From NCBI GenBank assembly GCA_030447005.1, contig JAUJME010000014.1:1-17795 (forward strand): a stretch of 17,795 nt of DNA. Direction: 5' to 3'. This stretch comes from Solirubrobacteraceae bacterium (lineage in GTDB: Bacteria; Actinomycetota; Thermoleophilia; Solirubrobacterales; Solirubrobacteraceae). Below are positions 2,799 to 17,795 of the stretch, one piece after another; within the stretch, counting starts at the first letter, position 1, and every line of letters begins with the position of its first letter. The translations under genes were made by a program, and so were the position numbers. The notes below the pieces were generated by a model, which was not told the origin of the DNA, searched no databases, and saw only the letters and a program-made list of their open reading frames with translations.

Positions 2799-3743
2799 TC
2801 AGCTGCGCTCCGAGTGCAGGTTCGGGCCGGCGCCCGGGTCGTCGCCCTCGACCTCGGGGTCGTCGACGATCTCCGTCGACGGCAGGCGGTTGCCCGCGGC
2901 GTACTCGACGCCCGAGAGGTCGGACTCGGCCTCCGGGTGGAAGGCATCGCGCAGCGGGTTGCCGTCGCCGTCGCCGTGGGTGGCGTTCTCGATCAGGTCG
3001 GCCTCGGCCGCCTCCCATCCGTCCTGCTCGCCGCCGCCGGCCTGGTAGACCGGGTCCATCGCGGGGTCGTCGGAGTCGTGCGCGACGACGCCGCCGATGA
3101 GCGCCGCCTCGGCGGCCGCGGCGGCCTCCTCCTCGGCGACCACCGGGTCGGTGGCGCTCGTCGCCGCGAGGTACTCCATGTCGGTCGTGTGGGCCTCGGC
3201 CCACTCGCGGCGCTCCGTCTCGGACTCGGGCAGCGCCGGCGCGGTCACCGACGGCCCCGGGGTCTCGATCGGCGGCGTGGCGACGCGCGGCGAGAGGCCG
3301 GCGCGCGGCTCGGCGGCGGCGACGGGGGCGTCGACGCCGTTGGTGGCGCCGGGCATGGGCGCGTCGCGGCCGATCTTCGGCTCGTCGGCGCGGTCGCCGG
3401 GGGTGCGGTCGGTGAGCGCCGCGGCGGCGATCTCACCGGCGCCGAAGACGACGTGCGGAAGCCAGCCGCCGAGGCCGGAGCTCTTGCTGCGCAGCAGCCA
3501 GGGGGAGGCGAGCAGGGCGGCGCCCGTGGCGGCGTCGAGGGCGAGGTGGGCCTTCATCGGGATCAGGCGGCGAAGGCCGAGCTCGTAGTCGGTGAGCAGG
3601 CTGGTGGCCAGCACGCCGCCGCCGGCCACCGACAGCGCGAGCTTCCCGCGCGCGTCGGCGCCGCGCAGGAGGAACGGCGCGGCCAGCAGGGATCCGGCGG
3701 TGGCGTAGTCGACCACGCCGTGGGTCTTGGTGGAGACGGGCAT
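2799..3743 (-). CDS. SPW-repeat-like membrane protein with long acidic C-terminal tail
   Basis: 314 residues, function unknown. The first ~110 residues contain about four hydrophobic segments (around 14-27, 35-51, 66-84 and 92-108). They begin with STKTHGVVDYATAGSLLAAPFLL and include ALDAATGAALLASPWLL, whose Ser-Pro-Trp resembles the SPW repeat (PF03779) membrane family. The remaining ~200 residues are low-complexity, rich in Pro, Ala, Asp and Glu, with a Glu/Ala-rich stretch and an Asp-rich end, so probably disordered. The ATG at 3743 is preceded by AGAGGAC (bases 3748-3754 on this strand) at 4-5-base spacing. It is the last gene of a minus-strand series. The acidic tail is compositionally similar to the 53-residue protein at 6569. 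The frame has many long antisense shadows; the codon pattern and membrane N-terminus favour this strand. Confidence 0.8.
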   Translation of the reverse strand: MPVSTKTHGVVDYATAGSLLAAPFLLRGADARGKLALSVAGGGVLATSLLTDYELGLRRLIPMKAHLALDAATGAALLASPWLLRSKSSGLGGWLPHVVFGAGEIAAAALTDRTPGDRADEPKIGRDAPMPGATNGVDAPVAAAEPRAGLSPRVATPPIETPGPSVTAPALPESETERREWAEAHTTDMEYLAATSATDPVVAEEEAAAAAEAALIGGVVAHDSDDPAMDPVYQAGGGEQDGWEAAEADLIENATHGDGDGNPLRDAFHPEAESDLSGVEYAAGNRLPSTEIVDDPEVEGDDPGAGPNLHSERS

Positions 3744-4302: not shown

Positions 4303-5091
4303 TCAGACCGCGTCGCGCCAGCGCACGGCGGCGGAGGCCACGTCGCCGAGCGCGCGGGCGAGCCCTGCGCGGTCGCCGCTCGCGCGGGCGACGGCCAGCG
4401 ACCGCAGCGCGGCGGCGAGGACCGCGGGCCCGGACGGCCCGCCGTCGCGCAGCCGCGCGAGCTCGCCGGCGCCCAGGGAGCGCCGCGCGCCGGCGGGACC
4501 CCGCGCCTCGGACTCGCGGGCGCGGGCGCGGTCGGAGGCCGCGTCGCGGACCGCCGCCTCGGCCTGGTCGCTCGCCGCGCGGACGCGCGCGTCGGCCTCC
4601 TCGATCGCCCGCGCGGCCTCCTCGACCACGCGGTCGCGCCACTCGGCCTGTGCCTCGTGGGCGCGGGCGAGCGCGCGGCGGGCGCGGCCGGCCTGCTCGC
4701 TCGCGCGGCGGGCGCGCCGGCGGGCGGCGTCGAGCTTGGCCTCGGCCCGCTGGGCGCGGCGCTCGGCGGCCGCACCGTCGGGCGCCGCGACCTCCGCCAC
4801 GGCCCGCGGCCGCGGGCCGGGACGGCGGGGCGTCAGGCCGGCGGCGCGGACGGCGGCGTCGAAGGAGCCGCCGAACGGCCGCTTGACGGCGTTGGTCGAG
4901 GGCCAGACCCCGTCGCGGTAGCGCTCGATGCGCCACTCCTGCGCGCGCCAGCGCGCCAGCGACGGGTTCCAGTCGGCCGAGCACGGCGGCTCGCCGTACC
5001 GGTCGTTCCACTCGCCGATCTTCTCGATGATCGTCTCGCGGGTCCAGCGCGTCACTCGACGCCCGCCCGCGGTCTGCGCGGACGGGGTCAT
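4303..5091 (-). CDS. HNH-associated-repeat (DNA-binding-like) protein with coiled coil
   Basis: 262 residues in three parts. Residues about 15-86 resemble the homing-endonuclease-associated repeat (PF18780 type): TRWTRETIIEKIGEW, a Gly-x-Pro-Pro-Cys turn, DWNP, then VKRPFGGSFDAAVRAAGL, where the family has a small DNA-binding helical unit ending FG-w-aal-AG. Residues about 105-205 are an Ala/Arg/Glu-rich helix predicted to form a coiled coil. The last ~55 residues are helical and Ala-rich. No HNH nuclease motif is present, so nuclease activity is not supported; a DNA-binding structural or regulatory role is a guess. ATG 5091 is chosen, with GTG 5055 (VTRWTRE) as a possible later start. It lies 24 bp upstream of the FHA gene on the same strand. 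Confidence 0.78.
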   Translation of the reverse strand: MTPSAQTAGGRRVTRWTRETIIEKIGEWNDRYGEPPCSADWNPSLARWRAQEWRIERYRDGVWPSTNAVKRPFGGSFDAAVRAAGLTPRRPGPRPRAVAEVAAPDGAAAERRAQRAEAKLDAARRRARRASEQAGRARRALARAHEAQAEWRDRVVEEAARAIEEADARVRAASDQAEAAVRDAASDRARARESEARGPAGARRSLGAGELARLRDGGPSGPAVLAAALRSLAVARASGDRAGLARALGDVASAAVRWRDAV

Positions 5092-7768: not shown

Positions 7769-9346
7769 GTGCGCTCCTGGCTCAAGGACCGATCCCGCGG
7801 CGAGCTGGCCGCCTACGGCGTGCTGGTGGCGATCGCCCTCGCGCTGCGGCTGATCGACCTCGGAGCCCGCCCGTTCCACCACGACGAGAGCCAGGACGCC
7901 TACTTCTCCTGGCGGCTGTTCACCGAGGGCGACTACGCCTACAACCCGCTGCTGCACGGGCCGCTGCGCTTCTACCTGACCACCGCGATGTACGCGATCT
8001 TCGGCGCGAGCGACACCGTGGCCCGCCTCGCGCCGGCGCTGATGGGGACCGCCATGGTCGCCCTCCCCTACCTCGTGCGCCGCCAGATCGGGCGGATCGC
8101 CGCCTTCACCGCCGCGGTCCTGCTCGCCGTGGGCCCCAGCTACCTCTACTTCTCGCGGTTCGCCCGCGAGGACATCTACATCGCCTGCATCACGCTCGCG
8201 CTGCTGGCGGTCGTGCTCCGCTTCCTCGACTCACCGCGCCGCCACCATCCGGCGCTGATGGGCGCCCTGCTGGCGGCCAGCTTCGCCACCAAGGAGTCGA
8301 CCTTCATCACCGTCTTCGTGGCCGGCACCTTCTTCGGCCCGCTCGCGCTCTGGCAGATCCGGCGGGCGGCCGGCGGCTGGCGCGAGGCGCCGCTCGTCCG
8401 CACGTTCCTCAGCGTCGGCTGGGAGGCGTGGGCGTGGGGCTTCGCCGCGTTCTGGCTCGTCTTCACGGTCCTGTTCACCGTCTTTCTCACGAACCCGGGC
8501 GGGCTGTGGGACGGTATCTACGACGGCCTGGCCTACTGGCTCGGCCAGCAGCCGGTCGGCCGCGGCGGCGAGCCGGTCGGCTTCTACGTCTTCCTGCTCG
8601 GGGGCGTCGAATGGCCCGTGCTGGCGCTCGCGGTGGTCGGCGTGGTCGCCGTCGTGCGCGCGCCGAGCACCGGGCGCTGGCTGATCGTGTGGATGTTCGC
8701 CATGTCGCTCGCGGTCTACTCGTGGGCGAGCGAGAAGTTCGCCTGGCTGGTGCTGCACCCGCTGCTGCCGCTGATCCTGCTCGCGGGGATCGGGGTCCAG
8801 GCGCTGTGGGCGTCCCGGCGCCACTGGACGGGCCGCGCCGGCCTCGCGGTCGCCGTCGCCGGCGCCGTCTATCTCGGCTGGACGAGCTTCCAGGTCAACG
8901 CCGTGCGCCCCGCGGACCCCCGCGAGCTGCTGGTCTCCACCCAGTCCTCGGAGGAGGTCGTCGACGTGCGCGACCGCGTCTACGCCCTCGCGAGGCGCTC
9001 CGGGCCGCCCGTGACCATCGCCATCGACGAGGCGGAGGGCGCGACCTTCCCGTGGGCGTGGTACTTCCGCGACCTCCCGGTGGGCTACATCGACATGACC
9101 CAGCCCGGCTACACGCCGGAGGCCGAGGTGCTCATCCTCACCGAGGCGTCGCGGCAGAAGCTGGGCGCGAAGCTCGACGGCTACGAGGGCCGCGAGTTCG
9201 ACTTCCGCGTCTGGTGGGTCAAGGACTACGGCAAGGCGTTCTCCCCCGCCAACTGGGCGACGTGGGTCGCCACCCGCGAGCCGTGGAGCCCGACGGGCGG
9301 CATGCCGGAGTACCTCTACGTGCGGCGCGGGCTCACGTCGGGTTGA
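7769..9346 (+). CDS. TIGR03663 family (Agl23-like) glycosyltransferase-like membrane protein
   Basis: 525 residues, an N-terminal GT-C/PMT-like multi-pass domain and a C-terminal soluble part from about residue 385. The few invariant residues known for TIGR03663 are present: the Asp-Glu pair at 39-40 (PFHHDESQDAYF), His-Gly-Pro at 63-65 (LLHGPLRFYL) and nearby arginines (Arg67; FSRFARED). GT-C enzymes use polyprenyl-phosphate sugars and place the catalytic acidic pair in the first outer loop. The family nearly always co-occurs with TIGR03662, which is the neighbouring convergent gene (14-bp 3' overlap). GTG 7769 follows the flippase-like gene by 9 bp without a clear Shine-Dalgarno; TAAAAA overlapping the previous stop lies 6 bases before GTG. 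Confidence 0.92.
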   Translation: MRSWLKDRSRGELAAYGVLVAIALALRLIDLGARPFHHDESQDAYFSWRLFTEGDYAYNPLLHGPLRFYLTTAMYAIFGASDTVARLAPALMGTAMVALPYLVRRQIGRIAAFTAAVLLAVGPSYLYFSRFAREDIYIACITLALLAVVLRFLDSPRRHHPALMGALLAASFATKESTFITVFVAGTFFGPLALWQIRRAAGGWREAPLVRTFLSVGWEAWAWGFAAFWLVFTVLFTVFLTNPGGLWDGIYDGLAYWLGQQPVGRGGEPVGFYVFLLGGVEWPVLALAVVGVVAVVRAPSTGRWLIVWMFAMSLAVYSWASEKFAWLVLHPLLPLILLAGIGVQALWASRRHWTGRAGLAVAVAGAVYLGWTSFQVNAVRPADPRELLVSTQSSEEVVDVRDRVYALARRSGPPVTIAIDEAEGATFPWAWYFRDLPVGYIDMTQPGYTPEAEVLILTEASRQKLGAKLDGYEGREFDFRVWWVKDYGKAFSPANWATWVATREPWSPTGGMPEYLYVRRGLTSG

Positions 9347-11435
9347 GCCGCCACACCGTCGTCCCGTCGCGGTCGAGGACGCGGCGGCCGAGGCGGTCGA
9401 ACTTGGCCAGGCCGTCGTCGCCGTAGTCGGCGCGCTCGAGCGGGCCGGCCACCACGTAGTCGACGCCGTAGCGCTCGAGCAGCGGGCGCACGGCGGCGGG
9501 GTCGGGATCGCGGTACATCCGCTCGACGTCGGCCCGCCGCGAGCCCACGTCGTGACCCCACTGGAGCTCGTGGCCCGGCCAGCCGAGGACCGTCGCGCGG
9601 CCCGAGAACGTCGAGATCCGCGCGTGGCCGAACTCCGAGTAGTCGTCGCCGACCGCCTCGAGCACGACGGCGTCGCCCGCCGCCTCGTCGCGCAGCCAGC
9701 CGATCGCGGCCACGTCGCCGGGCGCGTCGCGCTCGAGCCACGCCAGCCCGCTGAGCCGCGGGCCGTCGGCGAAGGCCGCCTTGCGGGAGTAGGTCCCCGC
9801 GAAGGGATAGATCGCGGCGAGCGCCAGCCCGACGACCGCCACCGGCGCCCACAGCCGCCAGGCGCCCGCCGGCAGCCACCGCCGCCCCAGCGGGAAGACG
9901 ACCGCGGCCATCAGCGCGAGCAGGATCCACGCCTGGAAGCCCAGCTTGAAGATCGTGTTCATGCGGAAGAGGTCCGAGCCCTCGAACTCGTCGCGGACGT
10001 AGACGAGCTCCGGGCCCAGCACGCAGGCGAGGCCCGCGGCGATCACGAGCCAGCCCCAGCGCTCGGCGGCCTCCTCGGCGTCCCACGCCGCGCAGGCCGC
10101 CACCGCGACCAGCGCCGCCATGAGCGCCGGCCCGGCGAGGTCGGCGGGGGCCAGCAGCGAGCCGGCGACGATCGCCGCGACGGCCACCCAGGCCGCCGTC
10201 CGCAGCGGGCGGCCCGTGGCGAGCAGCAGGCGGGCGAACGCGGCGAGCAGGATCCAGAGCAGGACGCCGAGGAAGAGCGACTGGTCGCCGACGAACTGCG
10301 AGAAGGAGCGCCGCTCCTCCACGACCCCGATCCCGCCCGTCGCCGCGTCGAAGGTCAGCCAGAACGGCAGCACCGCCAGCACGGAGATCCACAGGACGCC
10401 GACGCTCCACAGGGCCGCCGCCCGCCACGCGCCCGGTCGTGGGCGGCCGCGCAGCCACACGAGCGCCGAGAGCGCCACGATCCCGGCGGCCACGGGATAG
10501 GACCACGAGTTGATCGCGTAGAGGACGCCGACCGCGATCCCGGCGGGCACCACGTCGCGGCGGCTCGGCCCGCCGCGCGCGGCCTGGAGGCCGAAGGCGA
10601 GCGCCAGGAGCGTGAAGGGGACGGCGAGCAGGTGGGCGTGGAGGTCGCCGAGCAGGAAGGCGAAGGCCGGGAACTCGGTGATCGCCTGCGGGATCGCCCG
10701 CGACGGCCCGAACCAGTCGTAGGCGCGCAGCGGGCCGCCCTCGCGGAAGAGCTCGATGCCGGAGTCGAGCGTCCCCGCCCCGCAGACCAGGCAGGCCGCC
10801 AGCACGCCGGCCAGGACGCGCCGGCGCCCGCCCGCCGCGGCGGTCAGCGCCGCGCCGAGGCCGAACGCCGCCACGGCCGAGAGCGCGAAGGTCAGCGCCA
10901 GCGAGAGGTTGTAGCCGGCGCTCGGGGCCACCCCGGTGAGGCGGACGACGAACGCCATCAGGTAGTGGCCGAGGTAGTAGTAGTTGAGCTCCTCCCCCGC
11001 CATCCACGGGTCGTGCGGCGGCATGTCGCCGCTGGCGTTGATCGCCGTGAGGAACGCCATGTCCATCGGCTTCTCCGTCCCGCGGACGTCGGGCGAGTAG
11101 GCGGCCAGCAGCGCCCCGCCGGCGAAGGCGGCGACGAACACCGCCTCGGCGGCCAGGGCCAGGCGGCGGTCGCCGAGCGGATCGCCGTGGCGCCACCACA
11201 GCCAGGCACCCGCCAGACCGAGCGCCACCACGCCCGCGACCGCCGTGCCGGTCCCGTACGGCACGACGCCCGCGGACGCGAGCAGCCACACGGGATAGGC
11301 CGCGGCGAGCAGCCCGAGCGGCTTGGCGAACGCCGCCGCGCCGCCCGGCAGGCGGCCCAGCGCGAACGCCGCGAGCGGGAGCGCGGCGAGCCCGATCAGC
11401 TCTGAGAGCAGGAGGAAGCGCAGCGCCTCGGACAC
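9333..11435 (-). CDS. TIGR03662 / DUF2298 'YYY' multi-pass membrane protein
   Basis: 700 residues, about 14 or more hydrophobic segments, then a soluble C-terminal region from about residue 565. The hallmark block lies at residues 118-158: RGTEKPMDMAFLTAINAS, then HDPWMAGEELNYYYLGHY with the three tyrosines (152-154) that name the family. A second conserved block is EFPAFAFLLGDLHAHLLAVPF (255-275). Function is unproven; GT-C-like topology and linkage to TIGR03663 suggest a role in making or transferring a lipid-linked glycan at the membrane. The start is GTG 11435, 6 bases after a TAGCCT -10-like box, with no ribosome binding site. It overlaps the TIGR03663 gene by 14 bp at the 3' ends and is divergent from the gene at 11477. 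Confidence 0.93.
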   Translation of the reverse strand: MSEALRFLLLSELIGLAALPLAAFALGRLPGGAAAFAKPLGLLAAAYPVWLLASAGVVPYGTGTAVAGVVALGLAGAWLWWRHGDPLGDRRLALAAEAVFVAAFAGGALLAAYSPDVRGTEKPMDMAFLTAINASGDMPPHDPWMAGEELNYYYLGHYLMAFVVRLTGVAPSAGYNLSLALTFALSAVAAFGLGAALTAAAGGRRRVLAGVLAACLVCGAGTLDSGIELFREGGPLRAYDWFGPSRAIPQAITEFPAFAFLLGDLHAHLLAVPFTLLALAFGLQAARGGPSRRDVVPAGIAVGVLYAINSWSYPVAAGIVALSALVWLRGRPRPGAWRAAALWSVGVLWISVLAVLPFWLTFDAATGGIGVVEERRSFSQFVGDQSLFLGVLLWILLAAFARLLLATGRPLRTAAWVAVAAIVAGSLLAPADLAGPALMAALVAVAACAAWDAEEAAERWGWLVIAAGLACVLGPELVYVRDEFEGSDLFRMNTIFKLGFQAWILLALMAAVVFPLGRRWLPAGAWRLWAPVAVVGLALAAIYPFAGTYSRKAAFADGPRLSGLAWLERDAPGDVAAIGWLRDEAAGDAVVLEAVGDDYSEFGHARISTFSGRATVLGWPGHELQWGHDVGSRRADVERMYRDPDPAAVRPLLERYGVDYVVAGPLERADYGDDGLAKFDRLGRRVLDRDGTTVWRLNPT

Positions 11436-11476: not shown

Positions 11477-12532
11477 ATGCCGACCTACGACCTGATCGCC
11501 GGGCTGCCGCTGCGGATCGACGGCTACGCGCTCGAGGGCCGCTCGCGCACCGTCTCGAGCGGCTTCGAGCGCCTCACCACGGTCATCCGCCTCCACGGTG
11601 GCGGCGAGGAGGGGGTCGGCGAGGACGTCACCTACGAGGCCGGGGACCACGTCCGCCAGCAGGAGCGCGGCGCCGTCCTGCCGCTCGCCGGCGAGTGGAC
11701 GCTCGACGGCTTCTCCACCCACCTCGACGGCCTCGACCTCTTCCCGGCGCAGGCCCCCGGCTTCCCCGTCTACCGCAACTACCGCCGCTGGGCGTTCGAG
11801 AGCGCGGCGCTCGACCTCGCGCTGCGCCAGGCGGGCCGCTCGCTCGCCGACGTGCTCGGGCGCGCGCCGCGGCCCGTCCGCTTCGTCGTCTCCTCGCGGC
11901 TGGGCGAGCCGCCCACCTTCGGTCCCGTCGAGCGCCGGTTGGCCGTCTATCCCGACCTCCGCTTCAAGCTCGACGCGACGCCCGACTGGGACGACGCGCT
12001 GATCGCCCGGCTCGTGGAGACGGGCGCGGTCGACTCCATCGACCTCAAGGGCGCCTACAAGGGGACGTCGGTCGACGTCGCGACGGACCCCGAGCTCTAC
12101 CGCCGCGTGGCCGAGGCGTTCCCGGACGCCTGGCTCGAGGACCCCGACCTCACCGTTCCGGAGGCCGCCGAGGCGCTCGCGCCCCACCGCGACCGCATCA
12201 CCTGGGACGCGCCGATCCACTCCGTCGACGACATCCTGGCGCTCGACCACCTGCCGCGGACGGTCAACCTCAAGCCGTCGCGGTTCGGCTCGCTGCGCGC
12301 GCTCTGCGCGGGCTATGACTTCTGCGAGGAGCGCGGGATCGGCGCCTACGGCGGCGGCCAGTACGAGCTCGACGCCGGGCGCGGCCAGATCCAGTACCTC
12401 GCCGCGCTCTTCCATCCCGACGGCCCCAACGACATCGCCCCGGGCGGCTACGACGCGCTCGACCCGCCCCCCGGTCTCCCGGCCAGTCCGCTCGAGCCCC
12501 GCTTGGCGCCGGCGGGCTTCCGCTGGGCCTAG
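11477..12532 (+). CDS. Enolase-superfamily enzyme (MLE/OSBS-like barrel), specificity unknown
   Basis: 351 residues. An N-terminal capping domain (about 1-125, with RWAFESAALDLALRQAGRSL as in muconate-lactonizing-type enzymes) precedes a beta-barrel carrying a full set of candidate active-site residues. These are Lys164 (RFKLDA), Asp189 (SIDLKG), Glu221 (AWLEDPD), Asp244 (TWDAPIH) and Lys266 (VNLKPSRFGS). Asp/Glu/Asp would hold Mg2+, and the two lysines on opposite faces are the usual acid/base pair for proton abstraction next to a carboxylate. This points to racemase, cycloisomerase or dehydratase-type chemistry; the substrate cannot be told. It could resemble o-succinylbenzoate synthase, but no menaquinone genes are nearby. 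Leaderless start at ATG 11477. Confidence 0.8.
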   Translation: MPTYDLIAGLPLRIDGYALEGRSRTVSSGFERLTTVIRLHGGGEEGVGEDVTYEAGDHVRQQERGAVLPLAGEWTLDGFSTHLDGLDLFPAQAPGFPVYRNYRRWAFESAALDLALRQAGRSLADVLGRAPRPVRFVVSSRLGEPPTFGPVERRLAVYPDLRFKLDATPDWDDALIARLVETGAVDSIDLKGAYKGTSVDVATDPELYRRVAEAFPDAWLEDPDLTVPEAAEALAPHRDRITWDAPIHSVDDILALDHLPRTVNLKPSRFGSLRALCAGYDFCEERGIGAYGGGQYELDAGRGQIQYLAALFHPDGPNDIAPGGYDALDPPPGLPASPLEPRLAPAGFRWA

Positions 12533-16022: not shown

Positions 16023-16711
16023 GACTCCGCGATGGTGACCGACTCGATGACGACCGGGTCGACCGGGCGCTCGTCGGGGCCGGTCGGCGACGCGCCGATC
16101 AGGTCGACGACGTCGATGCCCTTGGTCACCTCGCCGAGCAGCGCGTACTCGGGCGGCAGGCCGGCGTCCTCGCCCGTCACGACGTAGAACTGGCTGCCCG
16201 ACGCGCCGGGCGGCTCGTTGCCCGCCTTGGCCATCGCGACGACGCCCTTCTTGTAGGCGAGGTCCTCCGGCGGCGCCTCGGTCACGGAGTAGCCGGGGCC
16301 GCCCATGCCCGTGCCGGTCGGGTCGCCGCCCTGGATGACGAAGCCGGGGACGATGCGGTGGAAGATCGTCCCGGCGTAGAAGTCCTTGCGGGCCAGGTTC
16401 ACGAACGACGCCGCGGTCTTGGGCGCGCGCTTGACGTCGAGGGTGATCTCGAAGTCGCCGCACGACGTGGCGACCGTGGCGACGTAGGTCTTGGCGGGGT
16501 CGAGCTTGGTCTTCGGGCGCGGGAGGTCGCCGTCGGGCTTGGCCTCGGGCTCGGAGACCTTCTTGCACTCCGCGGGGGCATCCGACGTCTGGGCCGGTGT
16601 CTCGGCCGGGGTGGGGGTCGGCTTGGCGGCAGCCTGCTCGTCGTCCTCGCCGCAGGCGGCGAGCAGGAGGCAGAGCGTGGGGATGCAGAGGAGGCGGAGG
16701 AGGCGCGACAT
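16019..16711 (-). CDS. Lipoprotein peptidyl-prolyl cis-trans isomerase (cyclophilin type)
   Basis: 230 residues. MSRLLRLLCIPTLCLLLAAC is a lipoprotein signal with lipobox LAAC, so Cys20 should be lipidated and the protein anchored outside the membrane. A Pro/Thr/Glu-rich linker (about 21-72) leads to a cyclophilin domain (about 73-228). Catalytic-site segments are FHRIVPGFVIQGGDP (117-131, with the key Arg119) and SQFYVVTGEDAGLPPEYALLGEVTKGIDVVD (173-203). It is expected to speed folding of exported proteins. ATG 16711 is preferred to TTG 16720, because a TATCCT -10-like box sits 8 bases before the ATG and would be inside the longer gene. The downstream GNAT gene overlaps its stop. Confidence 0.93.
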   Translation of the reverse strand: MSRLLRLLCIPTLCLLLAACGEDDEQAAAKPTPTPAETPAQTSDAPAECKKVSEPEAKPDGDLPRPKTKLDPAKTYVATVATSCGDFEITLDVKRAPKTAASFVNLARKDFYAGTIFHRIVPGFVIQGGDPTGTGMGGPGYSVTEAPPEDLAYKKGVVAMAKAGNEPPGASGSQFYVVTGEDAGLPPEYALLGEVTKGIDVVDLIGASPTGPDERPVDPVVIESVTIAES

Positions 16712-16719
16712 GGCGAGCA

Positions 16720-16727
16720 AGGATAAT
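16720..16727. promoter_or_regulatory. Overlapping divergent -10 boxes (bidirectional promoter)
   Basis: The 25-bp gap between ATG 16711 (minus) and GTG 16737 (plus) contains AGGATAAT. On the plus strand GATAAT (16722-16727, one change from TATAAT) ends 9 bases before GTG. On the minus strand TATCCT (16725-16720) ends 8 bases before ATG. Both spacings predict leaderless or nearly leaderless transcripts, and the two boxes share four base pairs, so only one direction could be open at a time. Confidence 0.55.
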
Positions 16728-16736
16728 CGCCCGCTC

Positions 16737-17534
16737 GTGCCCCTCTCCCCCGCAGTCGCCGGCTACGACCACCTCCTCCTCGACCTCGACGGCTGCATCT
16801 GGATCGGCGACGCGCCGACCGCCCGCGCGCCGGAGGCGGTCGAGGCGCTGCGGGAGGCCGGCAAGCGGCTGATGTTCCTCACCAACGACCCGCAGAAGTC
16901 GGCGGAGGACCTGGTGCGCAAGCTCTGGCGCCTCGGGTTTCGCGCGTCGGTGGACGAGATCGCCTCGGTCGGCGCCGCCGTCCAGCGGCTGCTCGTGGAG
17001 CGCGGCGGCGGCTCGGCGTTCGTGATCGGCGCCCAGGCGATGATCGACCACGTCGCCGCCGCGGGGCTCCGGGTGGTCAACAACACGGAGTTCGCCTCGC
17101 GCGCCGACGTCGTGGTCGTCTCGAGCCACGACCACTTCACCTACACGGAGCTGCGCGTCGCCACCCAGGCCGTCCTGCGCGGCGCGGAGCTGATCGGGGC
17201 CACGCGCGACCCGGTCTTCCCGATGCCCGACGGCCCCTGGCCGGGCACCGGCGCGCTGCTCGCGGCGGTCGAGGCCGCGACGGGGGTCCGCGCCTCCGTG
17301 CTCGCGGGCAAGCCGGAGCCCGCCTTCTACGCCGCGGTGCTAGAGCGGCTCGGCCCGGGGCGCACGCTGGGGGTCGGCGACCGGCTCGACATCGACGTCA
17401 AGGGCGCCCAGGGCGCCGGCATCGACGCCGCCCTCGTCCTCACGGGCGGCGCGACGCGCGTGGCCGCCTCCGAGGCCGATCCGCCGCCGCTGCACGTCGC
17501 CGACTCGCTGGCGGACCTGGTCCTGCGCGGGTAG
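16737..17534 (+). CDS. HAD-IIA (NagD-like) phosphatase
   Basis: 265 residues, haloacid-dehalogenase superfamily. Motif I is HLLLDLDGCIWIG, with nucleophile Asp16 and acid/base Asp18. Motif II is FLTND (Thr49). The cap domain spans about 75-185 (type IIA). Motif III is Lys192 in LAGKPEPAFY and motif IV is VGDRLDIDVKGAQGAG (Asp215, Asp220). NagD-like enzymes dephosphorylate nucleotides, sugar phosphates or glycolytic by-products such as phosphoglycolate or glycerol phosphate; the substrate here is unknown. GTG 16737 is preferred because of the GATAAT box 9 bases upstream; an in-frame ATG at 16710 would add nine residues (MASKDNRPL) and would overlap the opposite gene's start. Confidence 0.92.
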   Translation: MPLSPAVAGYDHLLLDLDGCIWIGDAPTARAPEAVEALREAGKRLMFLTNDPQKSAEDLVRKLWRLGFRASVDEIASVGAAVQRLLVERGGGSAFVIGAQAMIDHVAAAGLRVVNNTEFASRADVVVVSSHDHFTYTELRVATQAVLRGAELIGATRDPVFPMPDGPWPGTGALLAAVEAATGVRASVLAGKPEPAFYAAVLERLGPGRTLGVGDRLDIDVKGAQGAGIDAALVLTGGATRVAASEADPPPLHVADSLADLVLRG

Positions 17535-17607
17535 CCCGCCCTTCGCCAGCCGCGTTGTCGTTCGAACGGCGAACGGCGGCGGGTGAGGGAGGAGGCGGTC
17601 GGACGGG

Positions 17608-17648
17608 AACGTCACACCCGGCGCGGATCCCACCGCGAGTGTGACGTT
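17608..17648. repeat. Internal hairpin 1 (AACGTCACAC / GTGTGACGTT)
   Basis: AACGTCACAC (17608-17617) and GTGTGACGTT (17639-17648) are perfect 10-bp complements; weaker pairing continues inward to a GGATCC centre. It is about 74% identical by eye to the segment 60 bp downstream, so the two are diverged tandem copies of one unit. Confidence 0.6.
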
Positions 17649-17664
17649 GACCGCGAATATGACC

Positions 17665-17711
17665 GTCAACGTCACTCTCGTGGCCGATTCGGCCGCGAGC
17701 GTGACGTTGTC
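17665..17711. repeat. Internal hairpin 2 (long near-perfect palindrome)
   Basis: The left arm 17668-17687 and right arm 17689-17708 match as inverted repeats with two mismatches in 20, and pairing extends outward through 17665/17711. The centre is GGCCGATTCGGCC. It also contains the third and fourth copies of the GTGACGTT core. Far longer than a usual terminator stem and without a U-tract. Confidence 0.7.
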
Positions 17712-17761
17712 GGCACCGCCGGACGAGATCCCCCCTCACCCGCCGCAGTCGCCGTTCCCAC

Positions 17762-17767
17762 TAGGGT
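17762..17767 (+). promoter_or_regulatory. Putative -10 box (TAGGGT) for the gene starting at 17777
   Basis: CCACTAGGGTCTG lies 4 bases beyond the palindromic element. TAGGGT ends 9 bases before GTG 17777, the same arrangement as other leaderless-type starts here, and repeats the ACTAGGGT seen before the carbonic anhydrase gene. Confidence 0.4.
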
Positions 17768-17776
17768 CTGCGCCGA

Positions 17777-17795
17777 GTGCGCGACGTCCTGCTCA
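17777..17795 (+). CDS. Start of an unidentified gene (5' fragment)
   Basis: GTG CGC GAC GTC CTG CTC reads (M)RDVLL and runs off the window. Only six codons are visible, so no function can be given. The call rests on the -10-like TAGGGT 9 bases upstream and on hydrophobic-strand-like coding. Confidence 0.35.

Follow-up and report, generated by a model that had tools for sequence, protein, structure and literature searches.

Bacterial MITEs, in the extracts of PMC2229807 used here, are elements of ~100-200 bp with highly base-paired transcripts. The terminal inverted repeats (TIRs) of the Correia/NEMIS, ERIC, RUP and RPE families are 7-24 bp long (Table 1 of that source), and several MITE families carry a terminal TA. 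In the consulted sections of PMC3733652, REPs are described as 20-40 bp sequences whose GTAG or CGTC tag is unpaired, the CGTC form having its tag beside a stem of 8-9 bp with a loop of 4-5 nt. The same sections describe REP dimers enclosed in a longer palindrome, as for GTAG-15 in A. variabilis and CGTC-1 in H. neapolitanus, and TIRtron repeats, whose source is the long TIRs of genes for tyrosine transposases (section 16). REPINs, as presented in the relevant parts of PMC3116915, are inverted doublets that can form one large hairpin, and they are associated with a highly repeated 16-mer and with RAYT genes.

The window analyzed here is the whole stretch of 17,795 nt from a Solirubrobacteraceae bacterium, and close to its right end, at 17564-17757, lies a nested palindromic element of 194 bp and 69.6% G+C; no strand is assigned to the element or to its tips, arms, hairpins and linker. 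The preliminary description had reported a nested palindrome of this length with perfect 9-bp and 14-bp inverted repeats, offset by one base, and two internal hairpins, and inspection of the sequence together with a repeat search recovered every one of these parts at its coordinates. The 9-bp left tip GAACGGCGA (17564-17572) and right tip TCGCCGTTC (17749-17757) are 100% complementary. The left arm GCGGCGGGTGAGGG (17576-17589) is an exact 14-mer whose reverse complement constitutes the right arm (17733-17746). Tip and arm are spaced by 3 nt on the left and by 2 nt on the right, which accounts for the offset of one base. Tip and 14-bp arm together make up a TIR of ~26 bp with 24 matches, 1 mismatch and 1 gap. 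This outermost stretch is the best conserved part of the element, with 24 of 26 columns alike between the left end GAACGGCGAACGGCGGCGGGTGAGGG and the reverse complement of the right end GAACGGCGACTGCGGCGGGTGAGGG. The inner parts of the left arm (17590-17607) and right arm (17709-17732) have drifted from one another according to the repeat search and the palindrome alignment, the latter containing an 8-base gap in this section, and an ungapped comparison found the 34-nt arms to be 76% complementary. The symmetry centre of the element falls at ~17660. A second inverted pair of 12 nt (92%; 17536-17547 and 17568-17579) was also returned by the repeat search; it links the sequence directly 3' of the stop codon of the upstream HAD gene with the left arm of the element, and could compete with the outer stem.

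Within the arms are two hairpins of 41 nt, hairpin 1 (17608-17648) and hairpin 2 (17668-17708), both of which have the form AACGTCAC...GTGACGTT, and between them a 19-nt central linker, GACCGCGAATATGACCGTC (17649-17667), occupies the symmetry centre. The repeat search located hairpin 1 through arms at 17608-17620 and 17636-17648 (92% complementary over 13 nt) and hairpin 2 through arms at 17663-17687 and 17689-17713 (88% complementary over 25 nt). In the plus-strand fold, hairpin 1 is predicted to have a stem of 15 pairs and a loop of 6 nt, and hairpin 2 a stem of 18 pairs and a loop of 3 nt. The two are copies of each other in both senses: as direct copies, they show 77% identity over 47 nt ungapped at a start-to-start distance of 60 bases, and as inverted copies, they are 75% complementary over 44 nt. 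A 17-mer, CCGCGAGNGTGACGTTG, is present three times in the element, with exact plus-strand copies at 17633 and 17693 and a minus-strand copy with one mismatch at 17667. Allowing up to 3 mismatches, 5 matches to the 17-mer occur in the window against 0.83 expected, a count of at least 5 being reached in 1 of 200 shuffles; because the motif was drawn from the element itself, this enrichment is not an independent test.

The nested palindrome is real and strongly non-random. A comparison with shuffled sequence, which the preliminary description had suggested, was made with 200 dinucleotide shuffles each for RNA and DNA, and inverted pairing in the element far exceeded that of the shuffles in both cases (z of -9.6). 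The RNA fold reached -131.9 kcal/mol against a shuffle mean of -86.7 (z -9.57) and the DNA fold -80.4 against -47.1 (z -9.56), with 0 of 200 shuffles as stable in either set. A fold scan of the window in 177 windows of 200 nt, the steps of which left none centred on the element, gave a mean z of -0.46 (sd 1.2). Windows that overlap the element account for the two lowest values (-4.87 and -3.86), and the third (-3.80) comes from a window outside it, at 1901-2100. When left and right halves were scored for palindromy, the element obtained 70, whereas stretches before the element, sampled every 3 bases, obtained at most 45. The highest of these scores (45 at 4387 and 4402) mark a region at 4387-4595 that lies within long open frames. 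Apart from the arms of the element, the window has no exact inverted 14-mer pair with members up to 400 bp apart. By themselves, the 9-bp tips are not notable, because 137 exact 9-mer inverted pairs within 200 bp of each other occur in the window. The core (17608-17708) has a G+C content of 63.4% compared with 75.5% for the window, a value matched or undercut by 177 of 17,695 windows of 101 nt, 175 of which lie before 17500.

Folding of the opposite strand yielded a slightly more stable structure for the whole element (-137.5 kcal/mol on the minus strand vs -131.9 on the plus strand), with 5 wobble pairs against 1. This preference does not extend to the individual hairpins, the minus strand giving the more stable fold for hairpin 1 and the plus strand for hairpin 2. 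Since the hairpins favour opposite strands, the pattern weakly suggests a decaying DNA palindrome that has been changed on both sides, a reading of a single sequence against which the overall minus-strand balance argues.

Set beside the described families, the element resembles bacterial MITEs (as covered by the extracts of PMC2229807) in its size of 194 bp, in its long stable stem (z -9.6) and in its TIRs of ~26 bp, of which the perfect blocks of 9 and 14 bp can be compared with the TIRs of Correia/NEMIS, ERIC, RUP and RPE. This likeness is one of architecture, and the TA found at the ends of several MITE families is absent from the ends of the element. The resemblance to REPs is more restricted. 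There are 0 GTAG and 0 CTAC in the element, and its 41-nt hairpins, with their longer stems, differ from the hairpin shape of the CGTC form as given in the consulted sections of PMC3733652. Copies of CGTC are fully paired at 17610 and 17670 and have three of four bases paired at 17664; its complement GACG is paired at 17643 and 17703, half paired at 17602, and unpaired at 17722, 13 nt from hairpin 2. The lack of GTAG and the unfitting hairpin shape exclude a strict REP or BIME. Thus, where the preliminary description had spoken of an element of the REP/BIME or MITE-like kind, the MITE-like nested anatomy is upheld and a strict REP/BIME is not. The closest architectural precedents seen in those sections are REP dimers in palindromes and TIRtron repeats. 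With the former, the element shares two inverted hairpins nested in an outer palindrome, and with the latter, long TIRs that are in some cases self-complementary and sometimes arranged as dimers. The sequence CGGGTGAG, found in both arms, agrees by eye with 7 of 8 letters of the TIRtron motif GGGGWSAS, which is likely a chance agreement in G+C-rich DNA. The element differs from TIRtron repeats, as portrayed there, in that a Pfam scan of 10 window proteins showed no transposase gene. It resembles REPINs in being an inverted doublet that could fold as a single large hairpin; neither a highly repeated 16-mer nor a RAYT gene, both of which the relevant parts of PMC3116915 give for REPINs, was seen for the element.

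The gene to the left of the element (16710-17534, plus strand) encodes a HAD-IIA family hydrolase, as judged from Pfam (Hydrolase_6 and Hydrolase_like), a TIGR01460 match above cut-off and its protein relatives. Among the best 120 of 2462 relatives, the highest identity is 91%, the eight closest being 75-91% identical, and a Solirubrobacter protein is 66% identical, which would suit a Solirubrobacterales-type host. The element begins 30 bases after the stop codon of this gene (17532-17534). To the right, 4 bases beyond the end of the element, is TAGGGT (17762-17767, plus strand), a -10-like box of the TANNNT type described in the passages of PMC3898074 and PMC3160421 drawn on here. It is followed by a possible leaderless start (17777-17795, plus strand), a GTG continuing as VRDVLL... 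until cut by the window end. The distance from TAGGGT to the GTG is 9 bases, or 15 when counted from the first T of the box. According to those passages, leaderless genes are frequent in Actinobacteria, with TANNNT signals ~12 bp before leaderless starts when counted from the first T (PMC3160421), so a count of 15 is at the edge of the published range; the M. tuberculosis motif is centred 7-12 bp before the transcription start and has no conserved -35 (PMC3898074). TAGGGT and the GTG may thus represent a leaderless promoter with the element upstream of its box and, if so, the element would be outside the 5' end of the next gene. The preliminary description had rightly placed the right end of the element 4 bases short of a -10-like box. 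Its proposal that the element could bring or control a promoter is tenable insofar as the element could supply upstream DNA, but the box itself is outside the element. Of the two genes between which it had placed the gap, the first is the HAD-IIA gene, and the start of the new gene is presumed. A simple scan of 16600-17795 found 0 sigma-70-type promoters and 0 T-run terminators, results of little weight because shuffles lead one to expect just 0.0 and 0.1, respectively.

Other genes of the window include a row of molybdenum cofactor genes at 1-2193, encoding the C-terminal part of MoaA, a MoCF_biosynth protein and a MoeA-like protein, followed by a carbonic-anhydrase-like frame that extends to 2741 and scores below NCBIfam cut-offs. 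Coding sequence of the MoeA-like gene at 1901-2200 has unusually stable predicted RNA folds in two overlapping windows (z -3.8 and -3.5). A convergent pair (7769-9343, plus strand, and 9333-11435, minus strand) matches TIGR03663 (flippase activity-associated protein Agl23) and TIGR03662 (chlor_Arch_YYY domain; Pfam DUF2298), both above NCBIfam cut-offs. The 351-aa protein encoded at 11477-12529 (plus strand) has no Pfam match, and the one NCBIfam family it weakly resembles, o-succinylbenzoate synthase, is matched at a score far under the cut-off.

Further copies of the element were sought in the window and in collections of mobile DNA. Elsewhere in the 17.8-kb window, no match to the element exceeded 30.1 bits, which is below the mean of 34.8 bits for 60 control stretches. 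Searches with blastn matched 114 plasmid records (E of 0.2 to 9 for the best 25 of the 114) and 9 phage records, 0 of which covered 80% of the query in either collection. The best phage match (E 0.02) comprises 39 bases inside a resolvase gene and was taken as chance, like the plasmid matches. In viral contigs, the exact 17-mer CCGCGAGNGTGACGTTG was found in 50 stretches with one match each; AACGTCAC occurred within 40 nt upstream in 0 of these 50, and the longest match around the 17-mer (in L053) was 24 bases at 96%. Pattern scans of the viral contigs for the outer arms, the TIR, the centre and the hairpin 2 form each returned 0, and composite patterns were matched in one contig each, L054 and L055. 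The L054 match contains two hairpins with AACGTCAC/GTGACGTT ends 70 bases apart and was rejected as a relative for want of further likeness; that in L055 lies over open frames, folds with a z of -1.82 (10 of 200 shuffles as good) and was likewise rejected. At 2880-3034, where a 455-aa open frame ends, L054 also carries an iteron-like array of the 9-mers AACGTCACC and GGTGACGTT with nested inverted repeats; this contig has, in addition, an open frame that resembles a tyrosine integrase by eye. Relatives of the HAD protein gave 128 pattern matches in viral contigs, with 0 confirmed, and a scan of genome contigs for its locus, using the HAD protein and not the element as the query, confirmed 0 of 49 matched stretches. 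No clear target site duplication was recognized at the ends of the element, the only candidate being the 4-bp GTTC, which lies outside the left end but inside the right end. Searches of an open-access library found no description of such elements in Solirubrobacter or Solirubrobacterales, the papers returned for the order dealing with rhizosphere and pond communities.

From these features, we propose, with a confidence that stands at about even, that the locus is a miniature non-autonomous mobile element (MITE-like) or the remnant of one, with one known copy and putative mobility. Under this proposal, the TIRs of ~26 bp, seen directly in the sequence, would serve as sites for a transposase whose gene lies elsewhere and may itself be flanked by GAACGGCGANNGCGGCGGGTGAGGG, and the core would be the observed pair of mutually inverted, self-complementary hairpin copies. 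If the ends were once recognition sites, the expected pattern would be ends that are kept (24 of 26) and inner arms that have drifted (76%). The role of the element in its present host would be passive. In any RNA that reads through from the HAD gene, a branched hairpin of high stability would form and may protect or end the transcript, and the right arm, which takes up the DNA immediately before the following gene's -10-like box, may affect that gene. We count in favor of a MITE-like origin the excess of pairing, the kept ends, the size, the long stem, the low G+C of the core, the opposite strand preferences of the hairpins, the lack of a protein match at E up to 10 for the two reading frames searched and the hairpin-dimer precedent in the consulted part of PMC3733652. 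Counted against it are the lack of a second copy in the window and of a convincing plasmid, phage or viral relative, the lack of a clear target duplication and of a terminal TA, and the fact that the low core G+C is not unique. The excess of wobble pairs on the minus strand could be a hint of RNA and would, as such, argue against a MITE-like origin.

The strongest alternative is a structured RNA or 3' end element, that is, a hairpin bound to this locus that stops or protects the HAD-IIA transcript, or an RNA of the minus strand, and we consider this improbable but deserving of serious attention. It would suit the intergenic location 30 bases past the end of the HAD gene, the stability far above that of shuffled sequence and the better fold and additional wobble pairs of the minus strand, but neither strand is better for both hairpins, and no T-run terminator was found, though shuffles expect just 0.1. 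Rfam also speaks against it, as no family reached its gathering score anywhere in the window. The 15 matches at a low threshold are all below their own cut-offs, the best being MIR1858 (E 3.4e-05, 38 bits where 137 are required), and 7 of the 15 are to microRNA models, a class that rewards any long hairpin.

A regulatory DNA region, in which a putative regulator would bind repeated CCGCGAGNGTGACGTTG sites upstream of the promoter of the next gene, is in our estimation unlikely. The two exact copies and one near-exact copy in both orientations and the proximity of TAGGGT, 4 bases to the right, are what such a region might display, but the outer arms, which lack the 17-mer, are left unexplained. 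Moreover, the 17-mer was drawn from the element, its copies follow in part from the duplication of the hairpin, and the 50 exact matches in viral contigs, one per stretch, are not accompanied by AACGTCAC.

It is very unlikely that the palindrome is an assembly or amplification artefact. A position 38 bases before the window end, which, given the odd window length, may also be the contig end, would be in keeping with one, but a template-switch artefact would be a near-perfect mirror, and the arms here are interrupted by gaps and have diverged in their inner sections (76%). Least probable of all, and barely worth entertaining, is a coding gene fragment, live or relic, in the valine-threonine rich plus-strand frame VTLTANMTVNVTLVADSAASVTLSA, which is open from 17587 to the window end. 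Protein searches gave 0 matches at E up to 10 both for this frame (2 candidates) and for a minus-strand frame (98 candidates, from a query that also extended across the HAD gene's end, on its opposite strand), and a similar VTL frame can be read from the minus strand, which is what an inverted repeat would produce.

Beyond the MITE-like reading of this single locus, we raise as a tentative and rather doubtful possibility that the element represents an undescribed compound palindromic mobile family of Thermoleophilia-type actinobacteria, in which a AACGTCAC/GTGACGTT hairpin dimer within GAACGGCGA...GCGGCGGGTGAGGG terminal repeats would land upstream of leaderless promoters and supply their upstream region. 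Should the element be single, it would be one more strong intergenic hairpin. Should it be repeated in the host genome, it would define a small mobile-element family in an actinobacterial group for which the open-access library searches yielded no such description, and, with a possible leaderless promoter lying next to it, the effects of such insertions on expression could then be tested directly.
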